Shown here: positions 3,158 to 34,421 of the stretch, in pieces
How positions within the stretch are numbered: position 1 is the stretch's first letter
How the letters are laid out: each line of letters opens with the position of its first letter
NCBI RefSeq assembly: GCF_900129025.1
Contig: NZ_FQUM01000016.1
Coordinates: forward strand, 1 to 47,423
From: Mariniphaga anaerophila
GTDB taxonomy: Bacteria; Bacteroidota; Bacteroidia; Bacteroidales; Prolixibacteraceae
DNA length: 47,423 nt
Direction of reading: 5' to 3'
Translations under genes and position numbers: made by a program
The notes under the pieces: model-generated
Databases searched by the model: none
The model's input: the letters and a program-made list of their open reading frames with translations, nothing else
What the model was told of the DNA's origin: nothing

Positions 3158-3166
3158 ACGAAAAAA

Positions 3167-3261
3167 ATGAGCATGAGAATGGAATTTACACACCAAACGA
3201 GATGATTAAAATCTCATGCGAATTCCGTCTGTTGCCATAAAAAACTTAAAAATTAAAACAG
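3167..3261 (+). repeat. Leader element, diverged copy upstream of the PL12 lyase
   Basis: This 95-base leader resembles the three longer copies at 7406, 30879 and 33195. It shares GATGATTAAAAT...ATG.GA.TTCC and ends, as they do, in ACAGATGAAA at the start codon. Its stem GCATGAGA (3171-3178) / TCTCATGC (3212-3219) is perfect and sits where the other copies have ACATGAATTTT / AAAATTTATGT. Three stem pairs differ by compensatory changes. A further GGAATT (3181-3186) / AATTCC (3221-3226) pair is interleaved with the stem, so a pseudoknot is possible. Confidence 0.6.
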
Positions 3262-5208
3262 ATGAAAACAGGTATTCTGTTAACTGCACTTCTGGTCGCA
3301 ACTGCTTTTTTAAATCCGGTTTTTGCCGGTGATACTCCAAAAGTATATGAGATACTTAATCTCGATTTTCCTGGTTTTGAAAAAGTAAAACAGCACGTCG
3401 AAAATAAAGATTATACAAAAGCACAGGAAGCACTGCTCGATTATTATCGGCAGCGAACTTCAATCAAACATCCGGATGTAAATCGTGAGGATAAGCAAAA
3501 AATGAAGGGTAAACGTCTTGATGAATCGACCCTTGAAAAAGCCAATAACGGACTTAAACACCATTTCTTTGTTCATAAAGGGTATGGTTATTTTGATTTT
3601 GGCGATACTATTAACTGGCAATACTGGCCGGTGAAAGACAACGAAATACGCTGGCAGTTGAACCGAATGTACTGGTGGATTCCGATGGGAGAGGCCTACT
3701 GGTCAACCGGCGACGAAAAATATGCTAAAGAATGGGTCTGGCAAATGCGTGACTGGATTAAAGATAATCCGCGCGGGCTATCTAAAGAAAACGACCGTTT
3801 TGCCTGGAGGCCTCTGGAAACAGCACGAAGAGTGCAGGATCAGACAAATCTGTTTAACTACTTTATCGATTCTCCTAATTTTACGGCTGACTTTTTAGTG
3901 GAGTTCCTGGTTAATTATTACGTGCATGCTGAATGCATTCGCCAAAATTATTCAGAAAGGGGCAACCATCTTTTATTTGAAGCTCAACGGTTGATTTACG
4001 CCGGTGGCTTTTTCCCTGAATTCATTAACGCCGGTACCTGGCGTAAAGAGGGAATTGACATTCTGAATACCGAAATTGAAAAGCAGGTTTACGCCGATGG
4101 CATGCAATACGAGCTTTCGCTGAATTACCACATTGCCGCCATCAACATTTTTTTAAAGGCGCTGTATATGGCTCAGTTGTGCAATATGGAAGACGAGTTT
4201 CCCAAAAGCTACTCAGCCTGTATCGAGAATATGATAATCGCAATTGCCAACGCATCTTTCCCCGATTATACCTACCCGATGTTTAGCGATGCTAAAAGAG
4301 TTTCAGATGGTAGCATGCAAAAAAATTATCAGAGTTGGCTGAAAGTTTTTCCTGATAATGAGGTTATCCGTTATTTCGCAACCAAAGGAAAAAACGGGAA
4401 TGCGCCTGGCCATCTTTCCAAAGGGCTTACTAACAGCGGAATTTATACTTTTCGAAACGGGTGGAAAAAAGATGCGACCGTACTGATATTAAAGGCTTCT
4501 CCGCCGGCATTTTGGCACAGCCAGCCCGACAATGGAACTTTTGAGCTGTGGGTTAAAGGCCGGAATTTTATGCCCGATGCCGGCTGTTATGTATATAGTG
4601 GCGACGACGAGATTATGAAGCTTCGGAACTGGTATCGTCAAACGAAAGTACATCAGACATTAACGCTGAATAATGAAAACATAAATGTTGATGCACATCA
4701 AATTCGCTGGTCGGTATCTCCTGATTTGGATGAACTGAAGTACAGCAATCCCAGCTATGATAATCTGGACCATGAGAGAAACGTATTTTTTGTCGACCAA
4801 TCATTTTTTGTACTTGTTGATAAAGCCATCGGAAAAGGTACCGGGCAAGTTGATTTGCACTACCAATTAATAGAAGGAAATGCAAATGTAAATGCCAAAG
4901 CAAAAAGCATTGCCACAACATTTGATGATGGAAACAATGTAATCATCCGGTGCTTCGGGCCAAAAACAATGGAACTGATTGAAGAAGAGGGTAAAGTTTC
5001 CTATTCGTACCGGAAGGAAATTGAACGGCCGGCTGTGGCTTTCAGGCAACCGAAACCGGACGGAAAAACAGTAAAGTTCATTACCGTAATCTGTCCGTTT
5101 GACGGGCAAAAAGCTCCTGAAATAAAAGCTGCCTTTATTACTTCAAAAGACAATAAAGAGCAGGTTGAATTGGTCGTTAACGGCAAAAAACATCTATTAG
5201 ATATTTAA
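3262..5208 (+). CDS. PL12 heparinase III-like polysaccharide lyase
   Basis: A secreted lyase of 648 residues with a Sec signal peptide ending near residue 22, an alpha/alpha toroid N-terminal half and a heparinase II/III-type beta-sandwich C-terminal half. The residues I can match to the catalytic set of Pedobacter heparinus heparinase III are Asn235 (in ERGNHLL), Tyr289 (in SLNYHI) and His419 (in FWHSQP). From memory the reference residues are Asn240, Tyr294 and His424, a constant offset of five. Family members cleave heparan sulfate-like chains by beta-elimination, giving unsaturated ends that the adjacent GH88 could remove. Substrate could differ in an environmental strain: no sulfatase is present nearby, and heparinase II/III folds also occur in alginate lyases. 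The gene is downstream of GH88 and carries its own structured leader. Confidence 0.85.
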   Translation: MKTGILLTALLVATAFLNPVFAGDTPKVYEILNLDFPGFEKVKQHVENKDYTKAQEALLDYYRQRTSIKHPDVNREDKQKMKGKRLDESTLEKANNGLKHHFFVHKGYGYFDFGDTINWQYWPVKDNEIRWQLNRMYWWIPMGEAYWSTGDEKYAKEWVWQMRDWIKDNPRGLSKENDRFAWRPLETARRVQDQTNLFNYFIDSPNFTADFLVEFLVNYYVHAECIRQNYSERGNHLLFEAQRLIYAGGFFPEFINAGTWRKEGIDILNTEIEKQVYADGMQYELSLNYHIAAINIFLKALYMAQLCNMEDEFPKSYSACIENMIIAIANASFPDYTYPMFSDAKRVSDGSMQKNYQSWLKVFPDNEVIRYFATKGKNGNAPGHLSKGLTNSGIYTFRNGWKKDATVLILKASPPAFWHSQPDNGTFELWVKGRNFMPDAGCYVYSGDDEIMKLRNWYRQTKVHQTLTLNNENINVDAHQIRWSVSPDLDELKYSNPSYDNLDHERNVFFVDQSFFVLVDKAIGKGTGQVDLHYQLIEGNANVNAKAKSIATTFDDGNNVIIRCFGPKTMELIEEEGKVSYSYRKEIERPAVAFRQPKPDGKTVKFITVICPFDGQKAPEIKAAFITSKDNKEQVELVVNGKKHLLDI

Positions 5209-7405: not shown

Positions 7406-7524
7406 ATGAAACAAACATGAATTTTCTTCATTCAAAATTCACAAAAGGGAATGATTAAAATTTATGTGAGTTCCTGAATGTCTTCAAATTTTTTGAACAT
7501 TCATAAATCAAAAAAATTATACCG
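7406..7524 (+). repeat. Leader element copy 1, with 16-codon upstream reading frame
   Basis: This 119-base element starts with ATGAAACAAACATG and ends at the ATGAAAC of the lyase start. It is nearly identical to those at 30879 and 33195. Stem ACATGAATTTT (7415-7425) / AAAATTTATGT (7457-7467) has one G-U pair. An alternative inner hairpin, TGAATTTT / AAAATTCA, overlaps it. A small reading frame at 7478-7528 (MSSNFLNIHKSKKLYR) stops at a TGA that overlaps the lyase start codon as ATGA. This copy has seven A's where copy 3 has eight. Confidence 0.75.
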
Positions 7525-10500
7525 ATGAAACGGATTTCTATATTCTTATTCCTGGTTCTGATTTGCCGGATATTATTATTCGGGCAGGAGTATAATTACA
7601 AATCAACTTTACCCCAAAGTTCTAAACCCGGTCGTATTAAGCTTGACGCTAACGGAACTCTGTTTGTTACTCATCCTCTTACTCACCAGGTGCTACAAAT
7701 AAATATCGAGGACGCCTCTGTGATAGCTGAGGTAGGAGTTGCTGATACACCGGGGCGCAGCGCCACATTATTAGATACGCCAACAGATATTGATACTGAC
7801 AGTGAGGGCAATATTTACATAGCCGACAAAGGCAACTTTCGCATTGCAAAATTCTCTGCTGATTTAACGTACCTCGAAGAGTTAGAGCTTGGTACTAAAG
7901 CTCCGGAAGGAGTTACCGTTGGCCCCGATGGCAAACTGTATATTTGTTATTCAGGAAGTGAAGTCGGGTTGGCTATTTATAATGAATCGATTCTCGAACA
8001 AAATATTACTACTCTTTCAACCGATCGCTTCAGAAATCCTAAAAAAGTTCGGTTTACTTTTGATAGTCAGCTGTACATAGTGGATCGAAATACAGGCATC
8101 ATTAAAGTATCTTCTTTTACTAATGAACAGGCAAATGTAAGTCAACTGATTAAAAAAGAAGACGGCGCAACAGTTCTCGTCAGAAATGAGGATTGTGCTT
8201 TTTCATCGCAAGGCTCAATGATTGTAACCAGCAACGGCGATAATGATTCACATGGCTTGTACCAGGGATTGTATCGGTTTAACAGGATGGGGCTGTTTGT
8301 TGACAGAATTGGTTTTGCCGGAGCAACTGAAAGTAACGACGGTTTCAAGGCTCCTGTTGGTATTGACATTGACAGCAATGACAACATTTACATTGCCGAT
8401 TACAGCAACAGTCGGATTCAGATATGGGAAGCCACTGATGTTAATGCCCCTGAATTTATGAGTTTTAATATAATCAATAATTCAACTACCGGTGTCACTT
8501 TTTCTTTTTCGTTAAACGAAGCAGGCACGTTATATGGCATTATTCAGGAAACTTCTCTGTCAGCGCCCGAAATAGAAGAAATTCGTAACCCAACAACTGA
8601 ACAAATAGCATTTCAGGTGCCTTGTCGCACGCCCAATCAAAGTATAAACTATTCCGAGGGAAATCTCAGTACAAATACAGATTACACCATTTACTACATT
8701 GCGGTTGATGAAGCAGGCAATACTTCATCCCGTTTTAATTCCAGCGTGTTTTCAACAACGGCTCAAATTAACCATTTAGTGAGCCTGGAGAAGAATGTTA
8801 CTTCGGTGAAATTAGCACTTAATGCTTCAATGGTGGGTACAGTTTGGTACACTATCGAATCTTATTCGGGGCAGGAGCCTGCGTACACTACTTCCAACCA
8901 AATCAAAAACTCGCCTGACGGGAAAAGGTGTAATTATCCAGATGCCGGAAAAGATATTGAATTAAGCATTAATAATTTGTCTGAAGCATCAATATACCGC
9001 ATTTCATATTTTATTGAAGGCGAAAACGATGTGAAAACGCAGGTTTCCCATTATGTATTTAGCACCTTCAATAATTTTGAAAAGATGCTGCAACGCTATC
9101 GTTATTGGTGTGTGGGAGATAATGAAGTCGATTATGAAAATAGTTTGATTCAGGCGCGTTACCGAGCTATTGTTGCTGCCGGCGAAAAGGCTTTGGGAAA
9201 TCTCTATTTGTACGATGTTAACAATCCCGGGAATGTTTACGATTTGGTAAATAGCAGCGACGATATAAAACACATCAGGGAATTGATTCGCGAAACCCTG
9301 TTCCCTTTGGCATTGTTATACAATACACCCGGTTCGGTTAATCTTACAAATGCGTATTATAAAAATCCGGACACAGAACGACAATTGATGGACTTGTTCC
9401 GCTACCTCAACGCCCGCGGCTTTGCAGAAGGATGCAACAGCAATTTTAAAGGCGGCGGTGTTTATCTTGGCTTAACCGGCTATTTTTATGCATCAATGCT
9501 GATGAAACAAGAGCTTGATAAAGCCGGACTTCTGGAGCAGGTTAGTGAGAATATGCAATGGTGGACGCGTTGGGAATTGTTAGAAATAGCGCCTCAGCCA
9601 TGGTCGTACGAACAAAAGTCGGCTCTCAAACAAGCTGATTATGTCAGAACCTTTTACAACAATCATTTAATGACCATTTTAACCTTGCCAGACCATCAGC
9701 TGGATCGAAATTCAAAAATGTTGTTCCTGTCTGATATTTACAATGAGTCCTGCGAAATATCGTACGGCTGGGGTGGCTATATAAAGCCTGATTTTACCGG
9801 CTATCATCATCATGGAATCTGGGGAAGTGCCTACGTTACAGAAGCGCTCCACGTATCGTCGCAAATGAGCATGATTACAAAAGATACACCCTATGCTTTT
9901 AGCTTAAGTGCCCTAAATAACCTGAGTGAAGCAATGTTAGCGTATCGTTTTTATTGCAATACATATGATAATCCCGTTGGAATTTGCGGGCGCTTTCCTG
10001 CTAATCAGGGCAATTTGTTGTTGCACACTCCTGCATTTGCTTACCTGGCTGAGTCGGATATCAACAGCGAAAAAACAGTGGAATTAAAAGGAGCTTTCAA
10101 TCGCTTAATGGCGGCTCCTCAGAGTTTTTTGATTAATACCCTTGCTCCCGATGTACGTTCAGACATTCAGTTTAGAGGAGGAATAGGCGGTTTACAGAAA
10201 GTTGTTGAATTGTATGCTGCTACTGAAGCTGAAAATTCCCCGGAAGGGAACAGAACTTTTCCGTATGGAAACTTGCAAATTCATCGGCGAAACAACTGGA
10301 TGGTTAGTGTGAAAGGCTTTAGTAAATATGTTTGGGATTACGAAAACAATGGTGAGCAGAATTGGTTTGGCCGCAATCAGTCTGCAGGTGCTCTTGAGGT
10401 TTTTGCAACCCGTGAATCTGAGTCTGATATTGTTACAGCCGAAGCAAGTGGTTGGTCCGAAGCTGGGTATGACTGGAATCATGTGGCTGGAACAACCACG

Positions 10501-11787
10501 TTCAATCTTCCAAACTGGACCGATCATGACAAATCGTATATTTGGGCGAAATTTTCGCCTGAATCTTTTGTAGGCGGGGTGTCATTAAATAAGCAGAATG
10601 GAGTTTTTGCCCTCAAGTATGTAGATGTGAGAGAAACCGGCTGGGTAAAGCGTGATTATAAACTGAATGCCAACAAGTCTTACTTTTTTTTTGATGACCA
10701 GGTTGTTTGCCTGGGGTCTGACATCCAATCCATTCATCCGGATTACGAGGTGCATACAACCTTGTTCCAAAACTACCTGGAGGATACTTCAACGCCTTCT
10801 GCAATAAATGGGAACGAAAGCACAGGCACTGGCCTCAATTATGTTCAACCCGAAAGTAATCCGGTGTATCTGACTGATGTTACCGGCAACGCCTATTTTG
10901 TAAAAAACGGAGCCAATCTGAATGTGACCCGCTCTTTACAAACATCGCGCGACAATCGGGATAAGAATGATACCGAAGGTAATTTTGTTAAAGCGTGGAT
11001 CAATCACGGAAAACCTGATGGCGCCGGCTATGAATATCTGTTGTGGGTTCAGGCTCCGGACGGCAGAATTAAGGAACTTGCAACCAATCCGTCAGAATAT
11101 TATTCTGTGGATCAGAAAGATGACGTGGCGCACATTGTAACGCATCATCAAAAGAAAATGACTGGTTTTGCCATTTTTAAAGGCAATGAAATAATCGACA
11201 AGAAGCATATTTACAGCACGTCTGACGATTGTCTGATTATGACGCATCAGGTTGATAATAACACGTTGAACATAAGTGTTGCACATCCCGATTTGGGGTG
11301 GCTGGATAAAGATGAAAGCCTGTATCAGTGTTGGAGTGTTAACGACGGCAATCGGTGGCTGAAACCACAGGAACAACCGGTTGAGGTAATTTTAAGTGGC
11401 AAATGGACTATTGCAGAAGAACATCCTTCGGCGATATTTGCCGGCTATGATGAAATAAAAAATCAGTCGGCGTTTTTATTTAAATGCTACAACGGGGAGA
11501 GCATCGACTTGGAAATTCACGCAGAAAATGCCACTGCAATACAGCGTCTTTTAGACGATTTTCGGGTGGAATTGTATCCCAATCCCAGCAATGGAGTATT
11601 TACACTGGAAATATCAAAACCTGCAGAAAAAATGGAAATTGTAAGCAGTTGTGGAAAAGTTGTATCGTCTTACAACCAACTGCCAGCCGGAACACATCGT
11701 TTTGTGCATCAGTTTAAATCCGGTGTTTACTTTATTCGTCTTACGGACAATGCGTACTCGGCAACTAAAAAACTAATTATTCAGTAA
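7525..11787 (+). CDS. NHL-repeat / PL8-like polysaccharide lyase with T9SS sorting domain
   Basis: A 1420-residue exported multidomain protein. Order: signal peptide (1-20); NHL beta-propeller (about 35-305, with repeated D..GN.YIAD and DSNDNIYIADYSNSRI blades); two Ig/Fn3-like segments (about 305-515); alpha/alpha toroid (about 520-880); beta-sandwich region (about 900-1330); T9SS sorting domain (about 1345-1420, VELYPNPSNGVFTLEI...KLIIQ). The toroid carries KPDFTGYHHHGIWGSAY. Its His763 and Tyr770 have the same spacing as His501/Tyr508 of chondroitinase ABC, and Arg823 fits Arg560. A possible partner of Glu653 is Glu944 (GEQNWFGR), less certain. It should cleave a uronic-acid-containing polysaccharide at the cell surface by beta-elimination; chondroitin or hyaluronan would be the family's substrate. 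The N-terminal NHL propeller is unusual for PL8. The start is fixed by the signal peptide directly after the leader element. Confidence 0.75.
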   Translation: MKRISIFLFLVLICRILLFGQEYNYKSTLPQSSKPGRIKLDANGTLFVTHPLTHQVLQINIEDASVIAEVGVADTPGRSATLLDTPTDIDTDSEGNIYIADKGNFRIAKFSADLTYLEELELGTKAPEGVTVGPDGKLYICYSGSEVGLAIYNESILEQNITTLSTDRFRNPKKVRFTFDSQLYIVDRNTGIIKVSSFTNEQANVSQLIKKEDGATVLVRNEDCAFSSQGSMIVTSNGDNDSHGLYQGLYRFNRMGLFVDRIGFAGATESNDGFKAPVGIDIDSNDNIYIADYSNSRIQIWEATDVNAPEFMSFNIINNSTTGVTFSFSLNEAGTLYGIIQETSLSAPEIEEIRNPTTEQIAFQVPCRTPNQSINYSEGNLSTNTDYTIYYIAVDEAGNTSSRFNSSVFSTTAQINHLVSLEKNVTSVKLALNASMVGTVWYTIESYSGQEPAYTTSNQIKNSPDGKRCNYPDAGKDIELSINNLSEASIYRISYFIEGENDVKTQVSHYVFSTFNNFEKMLQRYRYWCVGDNEVDYENSLIQARYRAIVAAGEKALGNLYLYDVNNPGNVYDLVNSSDDIKHIRELIRETLFPLALLYNTPGSVNLTNAYYKNPDTERQLMDLFRYLNARGFAEGCNSNFKGGGVYLGLTGYFYASMLMKQELDKAGLLEQVSENMQWWTRWELLEIAPQPWSYEQKSALKQADYVRTFYNNHLMTILTLPDHQLDRNSKMLFLSDIYNESCEISYGWGGYIKPDFTGYHHHGIWGSAYVTEALHVSSQMSMITKDTPYAFSLSALNNLSEAMLAYRFYCNTYDNPVGICGRFPANQGNLLLHTPAFAYLAESDINSEKTVELKGAFNRLMAAPQSFLINTLAPDVRSDIQFRGGIGGLQKVVELYAATEAENSPEGNRTFPYGNLQIHRRNNWMVSVKGFSKYVWDYENNGEQNWFGRNQSAGALEVFATRESESDIVTAEASGWSEAGYDWNHVAGTTTFNLPNWTDHDKSYIWAKFSPESFVGGVSLNKQNGVFALKYVDVRETGWVKRDYKLNANKSYFFFDDQVVCLGSDIQSIHPDYEVHTTLFQNYLEDTSTPSAINGNESTGTGLNYVQPESNPVYLTDVTGNAYFVKNGANLNVTRSLQTSRDNRDKNDTEGNFVKAWINHGKPDGAGYEYLLWVQAPDGRIKELATNPSEYYSVDQKDDVAHIVTHHQKKMTGFAIFKGNEIIDKKHIYSTSDDCLIMTHQVDNNTLNISVAHPDLGWLDKDESLYQCWSVNDGNRWLKPQEQPVEVILSGKWTIAEEHPSAIFAGYDEIKNQSAFLFKCYNGESIDLEIHAENATAIQRLLDDFRVELYPNPSNGVFTLEISKPAEKMEIVSSCGKVVSSYNQLPAGTHRFVHQFKSGVYFIRLTDNAYSATKKLIIQ

Positions 11788-23766: not shown

Positions 23767-24119
23767 CTGGTTACATGAACGGTGTTAAACACATCGTGAG
23801 CTGCTGTTATAATTAATTTTACCTGACGAGTGAGTCCTGTTTTAAAGAGTTTCCTTAAATACAGCCACTTTTTTTATATCAATTTTTGGTATAACCATTT
23901 GGCCTTTTTTAACCATGGAACAGTCTGGGGCGTAATGCATTTTTAGAGCCGATTTCGCCCAAATAGAAGTTCGAGACAGCAATTGAATATTGTCTCGGAA
24001 TAAACAAGAAACAATTGAAAATCACACTGATGAAACAAGCATGGAATTTTATCACGCAAAGGAGTATAACTAACGTGCTGGTTGCATGAGTCACCATTAG
24101 AATAAACAATAATAGACGA
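23767..24119. other. Upstream region of the enzyme block, with palindrome and leader-like segment
   Basis: No coding frame is evident. CGAGACA (23972-23978) and TGTCTCG (23991-23997) form a perfect inverted repeat around a 12-base AT-rich spacer, plausible as an operator or hairpin. From 24030, ATGAAACAAGCATGGAATTTT resembles the start of the leader elements (ATGAAACAAACATGAATTTT), and the following bases resemble the copy before the PL12 gene, but the conserved stem is absent. The distance to the start codon is 90 bases. Confidence 0.4.
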
Positions 24120-26987
24120 ATGAAAAGAAGAACTTTTATAATTCGAGGTGCGGCACTCTCCGCCGGATGTGTTGCAATCGGAAATATCCCCGCGTGGGGA
24201 ACAGATTCACTTTTAGCAGATAATGCCAGCCATAATGTGAATTTATCAAATGCATTTAGAAATCCGGAGTCGAAGTATCATCCGTTTGTTCGGTGGTGGT
24301 GGAACGGCGATAAAGTTCAAAAAGAAGAAATTATCCGGGAGTTACATTTGTTAAAAGAAGCAGGCATTGGAGGAGTAGAAATTAATCCGATAGCATTTCC
24401 GTCATCGGGCGATGATTTGGGCATTAAATCGCTGACATGGTTGAGCAACGAATGGATGGACATGCTGCAGGTTGCCTTTGATGAAGCGAAGAAGCTGGAT
24501 ATGGTCTGCGACTTAATAGTAGGTTCAGGCTGGCCCTTTGGCGCCGAGTCATTACCGCGCAACGAACGGGCGCAGGTAGCAATTATTTATGCTGAAACGT
24601 TGGAAGGTCCGACTACTTTTGAAACCTCTCAATTTAATATTTTTGACACGGTAGACCCGGGAGTTACCGACCCGTGCCCAAGCCGTACTTTTGAAATCCT
24701 GTCGTTAAAACTGGTTCCGGAGCCGATGAGCAGCCTCAATCAGGTGATCGATCTGTCGGAAATGCGAAATGAAAAGGTAATAAAAGTAGACATTCCGCAG
24801 GGCAAATATGTGTTTTACGCATTGGTGAAGGTTGATTCTTTCGCTAATGTAATCAATGGCGCTCCTGGAGCGGCAGGACCTATCCTGAACCATATGGACA
24901 GCAATGCTGTTCGCAAATACCTCAATCATATGTCTGATACAATTCAAAAACGGACAGGCCCGCTTTCTGACCATTTGCGTGCGTTGTTTTCTGATTCTAT
25001 GGAGTTGGAAGGTTGTAATTGGAATGAGGATCTTCCCGACGAATTTAAGAAACGCCGCGGCTATGATTTAATGCCTTATCTTCCGTTTACGATGTTTAAA
25101 GTGGGGCGTTTGGGCGCCGTAATTGATCCAAATTACGGGGTAACAAAAGCCGGTGATTTTGCAGAGGAAATCAAACGGGTTCGTTTCGACTTTGAATTGA
25201 CAAAAGCCGAATTGTTGTACGAACGGTTTACTAAAACTTATCTTCAGTGGTGTAAAGATTTGAACGTTAAGTCGCGGGCACAGGCTTACGGTCGGGGATT
25301 TTTTCCATTAGAAAGCAGCTTGGGGTACGACATTCCTGAAGGAGAATCGTGGACAACCAACTGGCTGAAACATCGCGTAGGCGAAGAAATGTCAGACGAA
25401 GACTACCGTCGCGGGCGCGGATATACAATGATTAATAAATACGTTTCTTCGGCAGCTCATCTCACCGGAAAGAGAGTGGTGAGTTGCGAGGAGATGACCA
25501 ATACATACAACGTTTTCAACATCACACTCGAACAGTTGAAGATTGGTTCCGACATGAGTATCATGTCAGGCATTACGCATTCAGTATGGCACGGCTTTAA
25601 TTACTCTCCGGCAGAAGCCCCATTTCCGGGATGGGTACAGTACGGTTCGTATTACAGCGAAAAAAATAACTGGTGGCCATATTTTAAATACCTTAACGAA
25701 TATAAAGCACGCCTCTCTTCTCTTTTGCAGAATTCCGATATGTACACCGATATGGCTATTCTTCCGGCTAATTACGACATGTGGGGCGAAATGGGCGTAC
25801 AAACCGATCCCTTCCCCGAAAGGTTGAATATCTCGTACACCTCGATAATTTGGGAATCGATTAACAAAAATGGCGGAGCAGCCGATTATACCACAGAAAT
25901 AATTATTAACGATTCCCGGGTGAAAAACGGTAAACTCTGTTATGGGCCAAAGGAGTACGGCACCCTTTTCCTGCCTGAAGTTACAAGTATAGGAATTTCT
26001 ACCTTACAGAAATTGCATGATTTTGTTGCTACCGGAGGGCGCATTTTCTGTATTGAAAAATATCCCGAAAAATCATTGGGATTGAAAAACTGGAAGCAGC
26101 GCGATGAACAGGTTGCGGAATTGGTTGAAAAAATGAAAAAATTTAAGGATAGGTTTATTCTTATCTCAAAGCCCGAAGACAACCGTTTTCTGGAGTGGTA
26201 CAAATCCCTGATGAAAGAGTACAATCTGCCTCACTACTTGACAATTGAAAAGCCAAATCGTTTTTTCATGCAAACCCGCCATAAGGCAGACGACGGAAGC
26301 GAAATGTTTTTCTTCCAAAATGTTCATAAGCACGACAGTTATAAAACCAGGGTTTCGTTTCCAAAATCGCTTGCCAGGAGCCGGTATCCATGGGTTTGGG
26401 ATCCGGAAACCGGTAACAGCTTCCGCATTTATTTAAGCGAAAATAGTTTTGAAATAGACCTGGGGCCCGCAGAAACTCGAGTTATTGTTTTCAGTAAAGA
26501 GAAAAACGGGGCGGAATGGAAACCCCTGCCGGTAAGTGGCGGTAATGTTGAAACTATCAACAACGATTGGGAAGTAGAACTCAGGCACAGCCGTGAAAAC
26601 TCCATTCAAACATTTAAAATGTTTGAACTACAGGATTTGAAAGAAACAGATTACGTGAATTTTACAGGAACCGCTGTTTATCGGAAATCAATTAATTTCA
26701 ACAAAGAGAGTTCGAATTATCTGAACCTGGGAAAAGTCTGGGGAGTTTCAGAACTGTTTGTCAACGGGAAATCCTGTGGCGTAAAATGGTACGGTAACCG
26801 GATTTACAACCTTTCAGGAATACTCAGGGAAGGAGAAAATGAAATAGAAGTGCACGTAATTACGTCAATGGGGAACTATGTAAAAACGCTCACCGAGAAC
26901 CGCACTGCCCAGAGGTTTACAATGTTGAGGACTAAAAACCAGCCCATTCAATCCATGGGAATACTTGGCCCTGTGACCATTTATTAA
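24120..26987 (+). CDS. GH106-like glycoside hydrolase (alpha-L-rhamnosidase type), Tat-exported
   Basis: A 955-residue enzyme with a Tat-like signal (MKRRTFIIRGAALSAG). The family hallmark is FVRWWWNGDKV (residues 57-67) followed by REL-LLKEAGIGGVEI, a distorted TIM-barrel opening seen in GH106 rhamnosidases and close uncharacterised relatives. Acidic residues suitable for catalysis occur in LEGCNWNEDLP and SCEEMTN, but I cannot assign the acid/base pair. The C-terminus (about 850-955) is a galactose-binding-like beta-sandwich (ELFVNGKSCGVKWYG). It would release terminal rhamnose in the periplasm. It is the first gene of an apparent operon with the GH28 genes (37-base gap), and starts the block after a terminator. 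Confidence 0.75.
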   Translation: MKRRTFIIRGAALSAGCVAIGNIPAWGTDSLLADNASHNVNLSNAFRNPESKYHPFVRWWWNGDKVQKEEIIRELHLLKEAGIGGVEINPIAFPSSGDDLGIKSLTWLSNEWMDMLQVAFDEAKKLDMVCDLIVGSGWPFGAESLPRNERAQVAIIYAETLEGPTTFETSQFNIFDTVDPGVTDPCPSRTFEILSLKLVPEPMSSLNQVIDLSEMRNEKVIKVDIPQGKYVFYALVKVDSFANVINGAPGAAGPILNHMDSNAVRKYLNHMSDTIQKRTGPLSDHLRALFSDSMELEGCNWNEDLPDEFKKRRGYDLMPYLPFTMFKVGRLGAVIDPNYGVTKAGDFAEEIKRVRFDFELTKAELLYERFTKTYLQWCKDLNVKSRAQAYGRGFFPLESSLGYDIPEGESWTTNWLKHRVGEEMSDEDYRRGRGYTMINKYVSSAAHLTGKRVVSCEEMTNTYNVFNITLEQLKIGSDMSIMSGITHSVWHGFNYSPAEAPFPGWVQYGSYYSEKNNWWPYFKYLNEYKARLSSLLQNSDMYTDMAILPANYDMWGEMGVQTDPFPERLNISYTSIIWESINKNGGAADYTTEIIINDSRVKNGKLCYGPKEYGTLFLPEVTSIGISTLQKLHDFVATGGRIFCIEKYPEKSLGLKNWKQRDEQVAELVEKMKKFKDRFILISKPEDNRFLEWYKSLMKEYNLPHYLTIEKPNRFFMQTRHKADDGSEMFFFQNVHKHDSYKTRVSFPKSLARSRYPWVWDPETGNSFRIYLSENSFEIDLGPAETRVIVFSKEKNGAEWKPLPVSGGNVETINNDWEVELRHSRENSIQTFKMFELQDLKETDYVNFTGTAVYRKSINFNKESSNYLNLGKVWGVSELFVNGKSCGVKWYGNRIYNLSGILREGENEIEVHVITSMGNYVKTLTENRTAQRFTMLRTKNQPIQSMGILGPVTIY

Positions 26988-30878: not shown

Positions 30879-30998
30879 ATGAAACGAACATGAATTTTTG
30901 TTATTCAAAATTCACAAAAAGAAATGACTGAAATTTATGCGGGTTCCTGAATGTCTTCAACTTTTTTGAATACTCAGAAACCAAAAGATATTATACAG
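30879..30998 (+). repeat. Leader element copy 2, upstream frame fused to the gene
   Basis: A 120-base element starting ATGAAACGAACATG and ending at the ATGAAAC start of the next gene, nearly identical to copies at 7406 and 33195. The stem CATGAATTT / AAATTTATG is kept; the outermost pair is mismatched. The small frame that begins at 30951 (MSSTFLNTQKPKDIIQ) is here in frame with the enzyme, adding 16 residues if used. Confidence 0.75.
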
Positions 30999-33119
30999 AT
31001 GAAACGAAAAATGCTAGACGGTGGTGTGTCCTTGTTTTTTACATTTAATTTTGATAAAGTGAGTAAACTACGAACCCTGTTCCTTCTTCCTGTTTATTTT
31101 GTATTGTTTTCATGTTCTGAAAGCACAAGTGTTTTTGTTTCTCCTGCAGGGAATGATAAAAATAGTGGTACCCTGGAAAAACCGTTTTTAACCATTCAAA
31201 AAGCTTTGGATGTGGTCAGGGAGAAGCGGATGTCAGGGAATAATGTACCGTTCAACATTGTGCTGAGGGAAGGCGATTACTATTTTGCTGAAACACTTGA
31301 ATTTGCCGATTCAGATAGTAATTTGATTATTGCTCCATATAATGGCGAAAAAGTTCGGTTTACAGGTGGAATATCTGTTGAACCGGAAAAAGCCGTTTCG
31401 GTTTTGGGAACAGACAAAGAAAAATATTTTTCAAGAGAGAGTCGCGAACATATTTGTATGGTTCATCTGAAAAAGCTCGGAATAACAGATTATGGCGAGC
31501 TTCATCCGTTTGGCTTCCTGCGGCCTGAAAAACCATCGTGGATGGAGGTATTTATTAACGGAGAACCGTATCATTTGTCGAGGTGGCCAAACGATTCTTC
31601 AATACAAATAGGAGAAGTAATAAACAGTGGGGCTGTTGAGGCTGAAAAAAACAATGGAGAAGAAGGAGGAACTTTTAAGTATAGCGTGGAGCGCCCGTCG
31701 AAGTGGAGATATTCAGAGGATATCTGGATATTTGGATATTTCAATTACGGTTGGGCTGACGATGCTGTAAAACTGGCAACAATTGATACCACCGAAAAAA
31801 CGTTTACCACAGTCCAATCGCACATTTACGGATTTAGTTCCGGGAAACCATGGAACAGCTGGTATGCATTTAATTTAATCGAAGAAGTTGATACTGTCGG
31901 CGAGTATTATGTTGATCGCAAAGAAGGGATACTCTACTTTTATTCACCTGAAGAAACTGAAACAATCGAAGTGTCTGTTTTTAAAGATCCGTTCCTTTCT
32001 ATGAAAAGAGCATCAAGTATCACCGTTAAGGGAATTACTTTTGATTGTGCAAGGTGGTCTGCAGTAGAAATGTCCGGAACTCAAAACTGTCTGTTCTCAA
32101 ATTGTACTTTTAAAAACTTAGGCGGTTATGCTGTAAATATTGAGAATGACAAATCCGGAGCGTTAAATGGAGAAAAAACAGTTACGGGAAAAAATAATGG
32201 AATCGATAACTGTTCTGTTTTTCAAACCGGGTTGGGTGGAATCAGGTTGGGTGGGGGCAATAGGGAAACCCTTGAGGGATCCGGTGACTATGTTTCTAAT
32301 TGTACAATCCATAATTTCAATCGAATTGCAAACACGTATTGCCCGGGCATCAGAATTTACGGAGTGGGAAACCGCATTTCTAACAACGAAATTTTCGATG
32401 CTCCCCACGCTGCTATTTTGTTGAAGGGGAATGATCACCAGATTGAGTACAACGAAATTCATGATGTGTGCTTAACCACTGACGATGTTGGTGCGCTTTA
32501 CTACGGTCGAAATCCTTCGGAGAGGGGGAATGTAGCCCGGTTTAACTACTTTCATCATCTTGGAAATAAGTATCGCACAACTGCTGTTTATCACGACGAT
32601 GGCGCATGTGGAATGAAAGTTTACGGGAATGTTTTTTACAAAGCAGGAACCATTCCTTCGCTAATTGGAGGGGGAAGTGACAATATGTACACCAATAACA
32701 TTTTTATTGATTGTCCCATCGGAATAAAAGTTGACAACCGAATGCAGGCGTATGACTGGGCAATACCGATGATTGAAAAAGGTGGTGTGATTGACCAGCG
32801 ATTAAGCAAAATTAATTACAATCGGCCTCCATACAGCGAGAAATATCCAAGGCTCGCAAAGTATTGGGACGATAATCCGGCACTTCCGAAGCGAAACAAA
32901 ATCGATCAGAATGTATTTGTAGATGTAAACGAAATTATCAGGGGCGATAAGAAGTTTCTAGATTTTACTGAACGTAATTACATAACAACAGACGATCCCG
33001 GATTTGTAGATAAGGAAAATCAGAACTTTAAATTGAAGAGTTCATCCGTAATTTTTGAAAAAATACCCGGGTTTGAACAAATACCCTTTGAACAAATAGG
33101 GGTGACAAAAATGAATTAG
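30999..33119 (+). CDS. Right-handed parallel beta-helix enzyme, GH141/GH120-like, lipoprotein
   Basis: About 706 residues from this start. The signal peptide ends in VLFSC (Cys39), so it is a lipoprotein. The mature part begins SPAGNDKNSGTLEKPFLTIQKAL, typical of parallel beta-helix carbohydrate enzymes, with an inserted domain MEVFINGEPYHLSRWPND that I associate with GH141 and related xylosidase/fucosidase families. Later beta-helix coils contain SNNEIFDAPHAAILLKG and YNEIHDVC. The exact activity is not determined. An upstream in-frame ATG at 30951 would add 16 residues from the leader element; 30999 is preferred because the same leader precedes unrelated proteins. It lies behind the GH28 genes and before the UroD-like gene. 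Confidence 0.7.
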   Translation: MKRKMLDGGVSLFFTFNFDKVSKLRTLFLLPVYFVLFSCSESTSVFVSPAGNDKNSGTLEKPFLTIQKALDVVREKRMSGNNVPFNIVLREGDYYFAETLEFADSDSNLIIAPYNGEKVRFTGGISVEPEKAVSVLGTDKEKYFSRESREHICMVHLKKLGITDYGELHPFGFLRPEKPSWMEVFINGEPYHLSRWPNDSSIQIGEVINSGAVEAEKNNGEEGGTFKYSVERPSKWRYSEDIWIFGYFNYGWADDAVKLATIDTTEKTFTTVQSHIYGFSSGKPWNSWYAFNLIEEVDTVGEYYVDRKEGILYFYSPEETETIEVSVFKDPFLSMKRASSITVKGITFDCARWSAVEMSGTQNCLFSNCTFKNLGGYAVNIENDKSGALNGEKTVTGKNNGIDNCSVFQTGLGGIRLGGGNRETLEGSGDYVSNCTIHNFNRIANTYCPGIRIYGVGNRISNNEIFDAPHAAILLKGNDHQIEYNEIHDVCLTTDDVGALYYGRNPSERGNVARFNYFHHLGNKYRTTAVYHDDGACGMKVYGNVFYKAGTIPSLIGGGSDNMYTNNIFIDCPIGIKVDNRMQAYDWAIPMIEKGGVIDQRLSKINYNRPPYSEKYPRLAKYWDDNPALPKRNKIDQNVFVDVNEIIRGDKKFLDFTERNYITTDDPGFVDKENQNFKLKSSSVIFEKIPGFEQIPFEQIGVTKMN

Positions 33120-33194: not shown

Positions 33195-33314
33195 ATGAAA
33201 CGAACATGAATTTTCTTCATTCAAAATTCACAAACAGAAATGATTAAAATTTATGTGAGTTTCTGAATGTATTCAAGCTTTTTGGCCATTCAGAAATCAA
33301 AAAAAATTATACAA
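33195..33314 (+). repeat. Leader element copy 3, upstream frame fused to the gene
   Basis: A 120-base element, ATGAAACGAACATG to the ATGAAAC start. Stem ACATGAATTTT (33204-33214) / AAAATTTATGT (33246-33256) is the same as in copy 1. The small frame from 33267 (MYSSFLAIQKSKKIIQ) runs into the next gene in frame because this copy has a run of eight A's instead of seven. Confidence 0.75.
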
Positions 33315-34421
33315 ATGAAACCAAGAGAGAGAGTATTAAAAGCATTTAAAAAGTTGCCCGGATTACCCGACAGAATTCCTGTTCAGTTTGATTTATGCCG
33401 CCAGCTGGCCGACTACTTTGGAGAAAAGCTAAACATCCCGGTAAACTACACCGATAATTTGTACGAAGACGTAACTTACCGGATTAGTGCCAACGAGTTA
33501 CGTGTTGCTATGGGAAGCGATGTTGTTGTAACGGGTGCTTCTGTTTCCAATGATTATAAAATTGAGAAAGATGAAAATGGTCATTGGTTGAATGAATATG
33601 GGATGAAGATGAGGAAAGGAGCAATTTACGTAGAGGTAGTTGATTACCCGTTGGCAAATGCGCAAACAAAATCAGACATCGATAATTTTAAATTTCCCGA
33701 CCCTCTTGCCCCTGGTAGATACGACGATGCAGAGAGGCTGATTGAAAAATATCATGATGACTACTTGGTCTTTGGCGATATAGAAGTAACTGTTTTTTCG
33801 CTGGCCCATCAACTGGCCGGTATGGAAAAACTGCTTATTGATATGATGATGGAAACGGAATATGTTGTTCCGTTGTTCGAAGCATGTGGCGAATTTCAGA
33901 CACAAATTGGATTGCAGCTAATTGAAAGGGGAGTGGATGCTATCTGGTTTGGCGATGACTTTGGAACCCAATCCAGCCTTATTATTCCTCCCGAAATTTT
34001 TCGGTCGCAGTTAAAGCCAATTTACAAAAAAATGATCGACCGGTTTAAAGCTGCTAACCCCAACGTTATTCCCATTTTACATTGCGATGGTGCAGTAGCT
34101 GACTTGTTAGACGACATACGGGAAATAGGATTTGAAGTTTTTAATCCCGTACAGCCCGGCGTTCCCGGGCATCTTCCCAAAGATATGAAGGAGAACTTTG
34201 GCGATAAATTTGCTTTTTGGGGAGCAATTGATCAACAGGATTTACTCCCCAACGGAACAGATGACCAACTGGAAAAAGACATTGTTGAAAAGATGAATAT
34301 CCTGGGAAAAAATGGTGGATATATGATTGCTCCGGCTCACATTTTGCAGAATGATGTTTCTCCGGAAAGAGTACAGAAATTTATCGAGTTGTGCCTCAAA
34401 CACGGGAAAATATATGAGTAA
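33315..34421 (+). CDS. Uroporphyrinogen decarboxylase-family protein, catabolic subgroup
   Basis: A cytosolic TIM-barrel protein of 368 residues from this start (MKPRERVLKAFKK, the usual UroD-like opening). It belongs to the broad UroD/MtaA superfamily, which holds haem enzymes and corrinoid-dependent methyltransferases. It has FGDIEVTVFS, GVDAIWFGDDFGTQ and PILHCDGAVADLL (His256, Cys257), then FNPVQPG and a late IAPAHILQNDV. It is unlikely to be haem HemE: it is in a polysaccharide block, and the arginine-rich substrate start of HemE is not evident. Relatives are frequent in glycan-use loci of unknown role; methyl-group transfer from a methylated sugar is speculation. The frame is open 16 codons upstream within the leader repeat. 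Confidence 0.75.
   Translation: MKPRERVLKAFKKLPGLPDRIPVQFDLCRQLADYFGEKLNIPVNYTDNLYEDVTYRISANELRVAMGSDVVVTGASVSNDYKIEKDENGHWLNEYGMKMRKGAIYVEVVDYPLANAQTKSDIDNFKFPDPLAPGRYDDAERLIEKYHDDYLVFGDIEVTVFSLAHQLAGMEKLLIDMMMETEYVVPLFEACGEFQTQIGLQLIERGVDAIWFGDDFGTQSSLIIPPEIFRSQLKPIYKKMIDRFKAANPNVIPILHCDGAVADLLDDIREIGFEVFNPVQPGVPGHLPKDMKENFGDKFAFWGAIDQQDLLPNGTDDQLEKDIVEKMNILGKNGGYMIAPAHILQNDVSPERVQKFIELCLKHGKIYE

Follow-up and report, generated by a model that had tools for sequence, protein, structure and literature searches.

A family of short Bacteroidota mobile elements with a preference for start codons

Insertion sequences of the IS200/IS605 group and REP sequences with TnpAREP (RAYT) lack both terminal inverted repeats and a long target duplication; they have a hairpin close to the end and a short guide that contacts a short target beside the element (PMC6006769, PMC3733652). 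Y1 genes associated with atypical secondary structures are on record in Bacteroidetes (PMC6006769). MITEs, such as that of Porphyromonas gingivalis (PMC4596501), are short, dispersed, non-autonomous and present or absent between relatives. The TAACTGA direct repeats, according to the sections of PMC4679880 used here, lie in forward orientation near start codons, also in a few Bacteroidetes, but they are heptamer arrays, and how they might move was not apparent to the authors.

The element reported here, from Mariniphaga anaerophila and other Bacteroidota, resembles each of these systems in part, and no earlier description of it was found among the open-access papers searched. It has the features of IS200/IS605 and REP named above, the contact between guide and target being predicted, and, as those systems require for insertion, it lies beside a short fixed sequence, ATGAA (antisense TTCAT). 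Read on the antisense strand, its layout resembles theirs, with TTCAT next to the left end and the guide ahead (5′) of the foot of the hairpin. This order holds on the antisense strand only, whereas the G-U pairs of the element favor the sense strand. The element also differs from those systems: one guide of 7–12 bases apparently serves both ends, a start codon is the target, the GTAG tag is missing from the conserved parts, and in 38 Y1 loci no element was found beside the gene. It is MITE-like in size, dispersal, lack of autonomy and presence or absence between relatives. By contrast with the MITEs of DDE transposons, no terminal inverted repeat was present in 43 aligned elements, in which the first 14 bases and the reverse complement of the last 14 agree at 4.6 of 14 positions on average. 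From the TAACTGA repeats, which it resembles in orientation, in location and in occurring in Bacteroidetes, it differs in sequence and organization.

Copies in the window and in related genomes

The window, by which is meant the whole 47,423-nt stretch analyzed (contig NZ_FQUM01000016.1), contains three copies of subfamily A on the forward strand, as the preliminary description had proposed. Each ends at an ATGAAAC that opens a long ORF. Copy 1 (7406–7524; model match 118.1 bits) ends at the start codon of a PL8-like lyase at 7525, copy 2 (30879–30998; 108.4 bits) at that of a beta-helix protein at 30999, and copy 3 (33195–33314; 118.6 bits) at that of a URO-D-like protein at 33315. The copies are clearly related, but to call them near-identical, as was done initially, was somewhat strong given identities to copy 1 of 86% (copy 2) and 89% (copy 3). 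A diverged forward-strand copy of subfamily B with a decayed 5′ end (3162–3261; 48.8 bits, with the model match spanning 3162–3266) ends at the start codon of a heparinase II/III gene at 3262. Its stem differs from that of copy 1 in the manner originally described, the two halves being ACATGAATTTT/AAAATTTATGT in copy 1 and GCATGAGA/TCTCATGC in the diverged copy. That the downstream proteins are unrelated is borne out by their Pfam families, which all differ (lyase 8, beta helix, URO-D and heparinase II/III). The PL8-like lyase (7525–11787) additionally carries NHL repeats and, at its C terminus, a secretion sorting domain. A forward-strand segment at 24030–24119, which ends at the ATGAAA of a 955-aa ORF at 24120, is probably a fifth copy, from another subfamily and absent from the preliminary description. 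Its score is weak (27.1 bits, E 0.056), and the assignment was made from the exact end at a start codon and the likeness to another copy in the same genome (L210).

A search of the 5.05-Mb genome with copy 1 as query returned at least 36 places, 25 of which cover at least 120 of 126 positions; this count is a lower bound, the scoring having covered 40 of the 81 candidates. With the diverged copy as query, 16 places were obtained, and further subfamilies are present. Nine 5′ ends and nine 3′ ends in this genome were without an obvious partner, some belonging to other subfamilies and the rest resembling chance matches or lone ends. In five relatives, the exact first 16 bases occur 71 times, compared with 0 occurrences for the reversed control. 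Taken with the 36 matches in the own genome, this excludes chance. The preliminary description had named a search that yields neither further copies nor covariation as grounds for rejecting it; further copies are present, as is covariation (below).

Among 100 related genomes, the family was detected in 37, including the own genome (33 candidates scored per genome). Copy number varies within genera, as illustrated by values of 15, 24, 0 and 2 in g21. The distribution in Bacteroidota outside these relatives is sporadic, with the family detected in at least 2 of 395 genomes, own genome included, in a phylum survey that sets a lower bound (8 candidates scored per genome, strict filters). A pattern scan of named genomes yielded 72 stretches holding 75 elements, from Prolixibacteraceae (Draconibacterium, Puteibacter, JC049, Maribellus and Sunxiuqinia), a Saprospiraceae MAG, Flavobacteriaceae, other Bacteroidota MAGs and one contig labeled Methanohalobium. 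The latter, with a typical element at 746–874 (L108), is probably a misbinned Bacteroidota contig. At three loci of one genome (L306, L311 and L316 of G028), the contigs stop within the element, as though assembly had failed at the repeat.

Elements start with ATGAAACGAAC and are about 95–155 bp long. The 43 that were aligned measure 103–150 bases, including the final ATGAA, and their longest ATG-initiated ORF encodes 39 aa. The element is therefore too short to encode its own enzyme and is non-autonomous. No autonomous partner was found, and inspection by eye of 44 element starts in five relatives for a larger, autonomous version revealed no long element.

Start codons and empty sites

Removal of four elements cut by contig ends left 71 of the 75 scanned elements, all of which have ATGAA at the 3′ border (the script sought ATGA); ATGAG was seen elsewhere, at L204. 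In copy 1, this pentamer lies at 7525–7529 on the forward strand, where sequence, scanned sites and empty sites identify it as both target and start codon. In the own genome, 22 of the 25 near-full copies terminate at an ATG whose ORF is at least 60 aa long or has no stop before the stretch runs out, the exceptions being L013, L019 and L028. For elements outside the own genome, four outer tandem members were also removed, and a start codon was accepted if it opened an ORF of at least 60 aa with an in-frame stop no more than 25 codons upstream in the joined flanks. By this rule, 52 of 67 elements end at a start codon. The other 15 comprise four with a long ORF that fail the upstream limit only (L112, L137, L141 and L173), one whose 56-aa ORF runs off the contig (L148) and ten that lack a qualifying in-frame ORF (L107, L108, L117, L119, L122, L123, L132, L162, L169 and L177). 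The joined sites of L107 and L177 lie inside ORFs of at least 90 aa, in sense and antisense. In a second sample, selected by the first 16 bases only, 35 of 41 elements end at the start of such an ORF (71 sites in five genomes, 44 read and 3 cut); of the six that do not, one is an outer member of a tandem.

In the DNA of the pattern scan, with elements masked, simple ORF calls placed 199 ATGAA pentamers at starts, 403 between genes and 1781 inside genes. The proportion of elements at start codons (52 of 67) exceeds the 33% of non-intragenic ATGAA found at starts (199 of 602; P = 1e-13) and also the 50% expected with upstream A content matched (P = 3e-6). In the 20 bases upstream, with flanks resembling older elements excluded, the A fraction is 0.52 for elements, 0.48 for background starts and 0.37 for intergenic ATGAA. 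The A-rich flanks explain some of the excess at start codons, and more of it may be due to selection against insertions elsewhere. The last 16 bases of the element consensus (AAAAAATTTTAAACAG) are themselves A-rich, like the start regions of host genes, with A at −6, −12 and −13 and C at −3. Adenines at −3, −6, −12 and −13 promote initiation in Flavobacterium johnsoniae, according to the part of PMC6847099 drawn on here.

Nine occupied sites in probable Draconibacterium genomes have an empty counterpart in a sister species, from which it follows that the element moves. Eight of these were found among four Draconibacterium-group genomes (L113, L120, L137, L141, L147, L158, L179 and L180). For seven, one relative or more carries an empty allele that reads ATGAA at the junction; for L141, the empty allele reads ATAAAG. 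An indel sits three bases away from the junction of L113, the upstream alignment of L158 extends to 45 bases only, and L137 and L180 have more diverged upstream flanks. At the ninth site (L183), the sister is empty with one base difference ahead of the ATG, and L183 is itself the empty counterpart of L147, at a neighboring gene. Tandem copies with one common ATGAA (L061, L118, L136, L145, L148 and L341) suggest serial insertion.

The preliminary description had raised the possibility of a small mobile element, and the empty sites, tandem copies and patchy distribution all support this. The idea that such an element brings its own start codon does not hold in simple form, as the empty allele already has that start codon. 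Nor is the ATGAAAC at both ends of the window copies a plain target duplication. In several scanned elements, ATGAAAC at the 5′ end (a sequence that the scan pattern itself demanded) occurs with ATGAAT or ATGAAG on the 3′ side, and the two ends therefore have five bases in common. We conclude that the family is real and mobile and has a preference for start codons.

Fold and internal guide

The outer part of helix H1 of copy 1 is formed by forward-strand positions 7415–7425 (5′ strand) and 7457–7467 (3′ strand), as assigned from sequence and covariation. Across the 43 aligned elements, H1 is paired in 85.5% of cells compared with 38–62% for slid versions. Eight of its 16 pairs have changed on both sides, a figure equaled by 1 of 500 shuffles, and the number of cells changed on both sides is 26 in the true register and 27 in a slid version (−3). 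The inner helix is weaker, with 77% paired. The RNA fold attributed to the leader is thus backed by covariation. H1 pair 14–83 (n = 43) is G-U in 28 elements, G-C in 10, A-U in 3 and U-G in 1. Because G-U at this pair would turn into an A-C mismatch if the antisense strand were the one that folds, the G-U pairs favor the sense strand. This alignment is free of any window choice favoring G-U, whereas the 27 to 3 ratio obtained with 39 representatives is biased because the H1 window was picked by a score that favors G-U over A-C. Those 39 representatives probably include at least one sequence that is no element. Their outermost pair is A-T in 25, C-G in 3 and G-C in 2; for position 7 and guide position 1, the combination is C-G in 33, T-A in 4 and other in 2.

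Predicted folds of five stretches gave z values of −2.4 to −4.1. Those of L009, L183 and L202 comprise an AAC:GTT pairing, a small internal loop and H1; the tandem L061 folds differently, and L075 was folded without its 5′ end. The predicted 3′ stem includes the AUG in L075, L183 and L202, and the AUG of the A-type L009 lies outside the stems of the element. On the forward strand of copy 1, the 5′ end ATGAAAC is at 7406–7412, where sequence, the fold of sister copy L009 and the covariation of position 7 with guide position 1 indicate pairing of AAC with guide GTT. The A-type guide segment GTTCCTG is at 7470–7476, with a role deduced from covariation and pairing in other copies, and the A-type 3′ hairpin, predicted from the L009 fold, is at 7474–7504.

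In several subfamilies, the guide (GTTNCAT and about five further bases) shows complementarity to the element 3′ end and start codon and, in its first bases, to the element 5′ end. Where the guide contains CAT, the five bases that follow it pair with the five preceding ATG at 3.5 of 5 positions, compared with 2.48 when shuffled (0 of 10000), in a set of 28 script-parsed pairs that retains some plainly misparsed rows. Earlier runs gave 4.36 versus 3.36 for 14 pairs (0 of 2000 shuffles) and 4.0 versus 2.95 for 28 pairs, 13 of them hand-typed (0 of 5000). A CAT guide is present in only 48 of 149 parsed sites, the other 101 being without one and unsorted by subfamily. The A-type guide GTTCCTG was read as GTTCCATCTG minus CAT. 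A pseudoknot of the H type, suspected by eye between GTGAG and the loop of H1, looked inconsistent from one subfamily to another and was left uncounted.

Comparison with Rfam 15 gave 0 matches at curated score in the window and none near the gathering score at the element. At 12 loci, one weak match was obtained, to the Bacteroides sRNA BTnc005 (L154, 2862–2966; E 0.0009), far below the gathering score and away from the element.

Explanations for the family and a working model

Taken as a whole, the observations are very probably explained by a family of short non-autonomous mobile elements of Bacteroidota, each lying immediately 5′ of an ATGAA that in most cases is a start codon. The most serious competing account, which we regard as a real but lesser prospect, is that insertion occurs at any ATGAA, with the concentration at start codons due to selection alone. 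The ATGAA found throughout at the 3′ border and the expected loss of most insertions within genes fit this account, and A-rich flanks lift the expected proportion from 33 to 50%, but the excess persists with intragenic sites removed and flanks matched (52 of 67 against 50%, P = 3e-6), a comparison that relies on simple ORF calling and is not decisive. Movement at the RNA level, in which the element RNA or a circle would be joined to mRNA at AUGAA via the guide and then copied into DNA, would explain the sense-strand fold with G-U pairs, the landing on start codons in the sense direction and the complementarity of the guide to AUGAA. It is nevertheless unlikely, since no Rfam catalytic RNA family matched the element and reverse transcriptase presence is unrelated to it, with matches in 18 of 37 carriers, several having none, versus 36 of 63 other genomes (P = 0.53).

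The preliminary description had also considered a cis-acting RNA that coordinates the downstream genes; here the guide would pair with its own 5′ end or the start codon and the leader would switch translation of a gene set. Covarying sense-strand helices, a covarying guide and predicted folds that pair the start codon (L075, L183 and L202) are compatible with such a role, which we nonetheless consider improbable. Near-identical copies stand in front of genes that are unrelated, some copies are decayed or arranged in tandem, sites occupied in one species are empty in its sister, and the A-type fold of L009 leaves the AUG outside the element's stems. Insertion may affect translation; the leader is unlikely to act as a switch for a whole regulon. 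Duplication of an upstream region by ordinary means would account for the high identity among copies, and yet similarity ends at the borders, the flanks look unrelated by eye and sister species have empty sites, so that an origin by block duplication is contradicted and this last account is scarcely tenable.

The working model is guide-directed, IS200/IS605-like insertion of an element mobilized in trans. The guide would bring both element ends into line with the target, an enzyme supplied in trans would join the ends to it, and the A-rich 3′ end would keep the host gene translatable after insertion. The likeliest type of enzyme, put forward tentatively, is a single-strand transposase of the Y1 HUH class that would act next to TTCAT on the antisense strand; some other recombinase is about as plausible. 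It is conceivable, if rather doubtful, that complementarity to AUGAA lets the guide steer the element into translation starts, possibly at the RNA level, with the gene gaining the element's start region; the family would then represent transposition steered by a guide to start codons.

None of 38 Y1 transposase loci (117.7 kb) had a model match to the element, and the own genome has one weak Y1 match only. The fit of the G-U pairs to the sense strand also speaks against a Y1 enzyme, as the HUH model calls for the antisense strand. Y1 genes are present in 35 of 37 carrier genomes versus 47 of 63 others (P = 0.014) and, within the same family only, in 31 of 32 carriers versus 20 of 28 others (P = 0.009), a weak co-occurrence in which kinship was ignored. 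Several Y1 genes of relatives (L217–L235 and L086–L105) appeared by eye to be flanked by GC-richer, palindrome-like repeats of their own.

Insertion exactly at a start codon with the gene still readable would allow spread in gene-dense genomes and would hand dozens of genes a new structured 5′ leader. With ends, target and guide all defined, the mechanism is open to direct testing.
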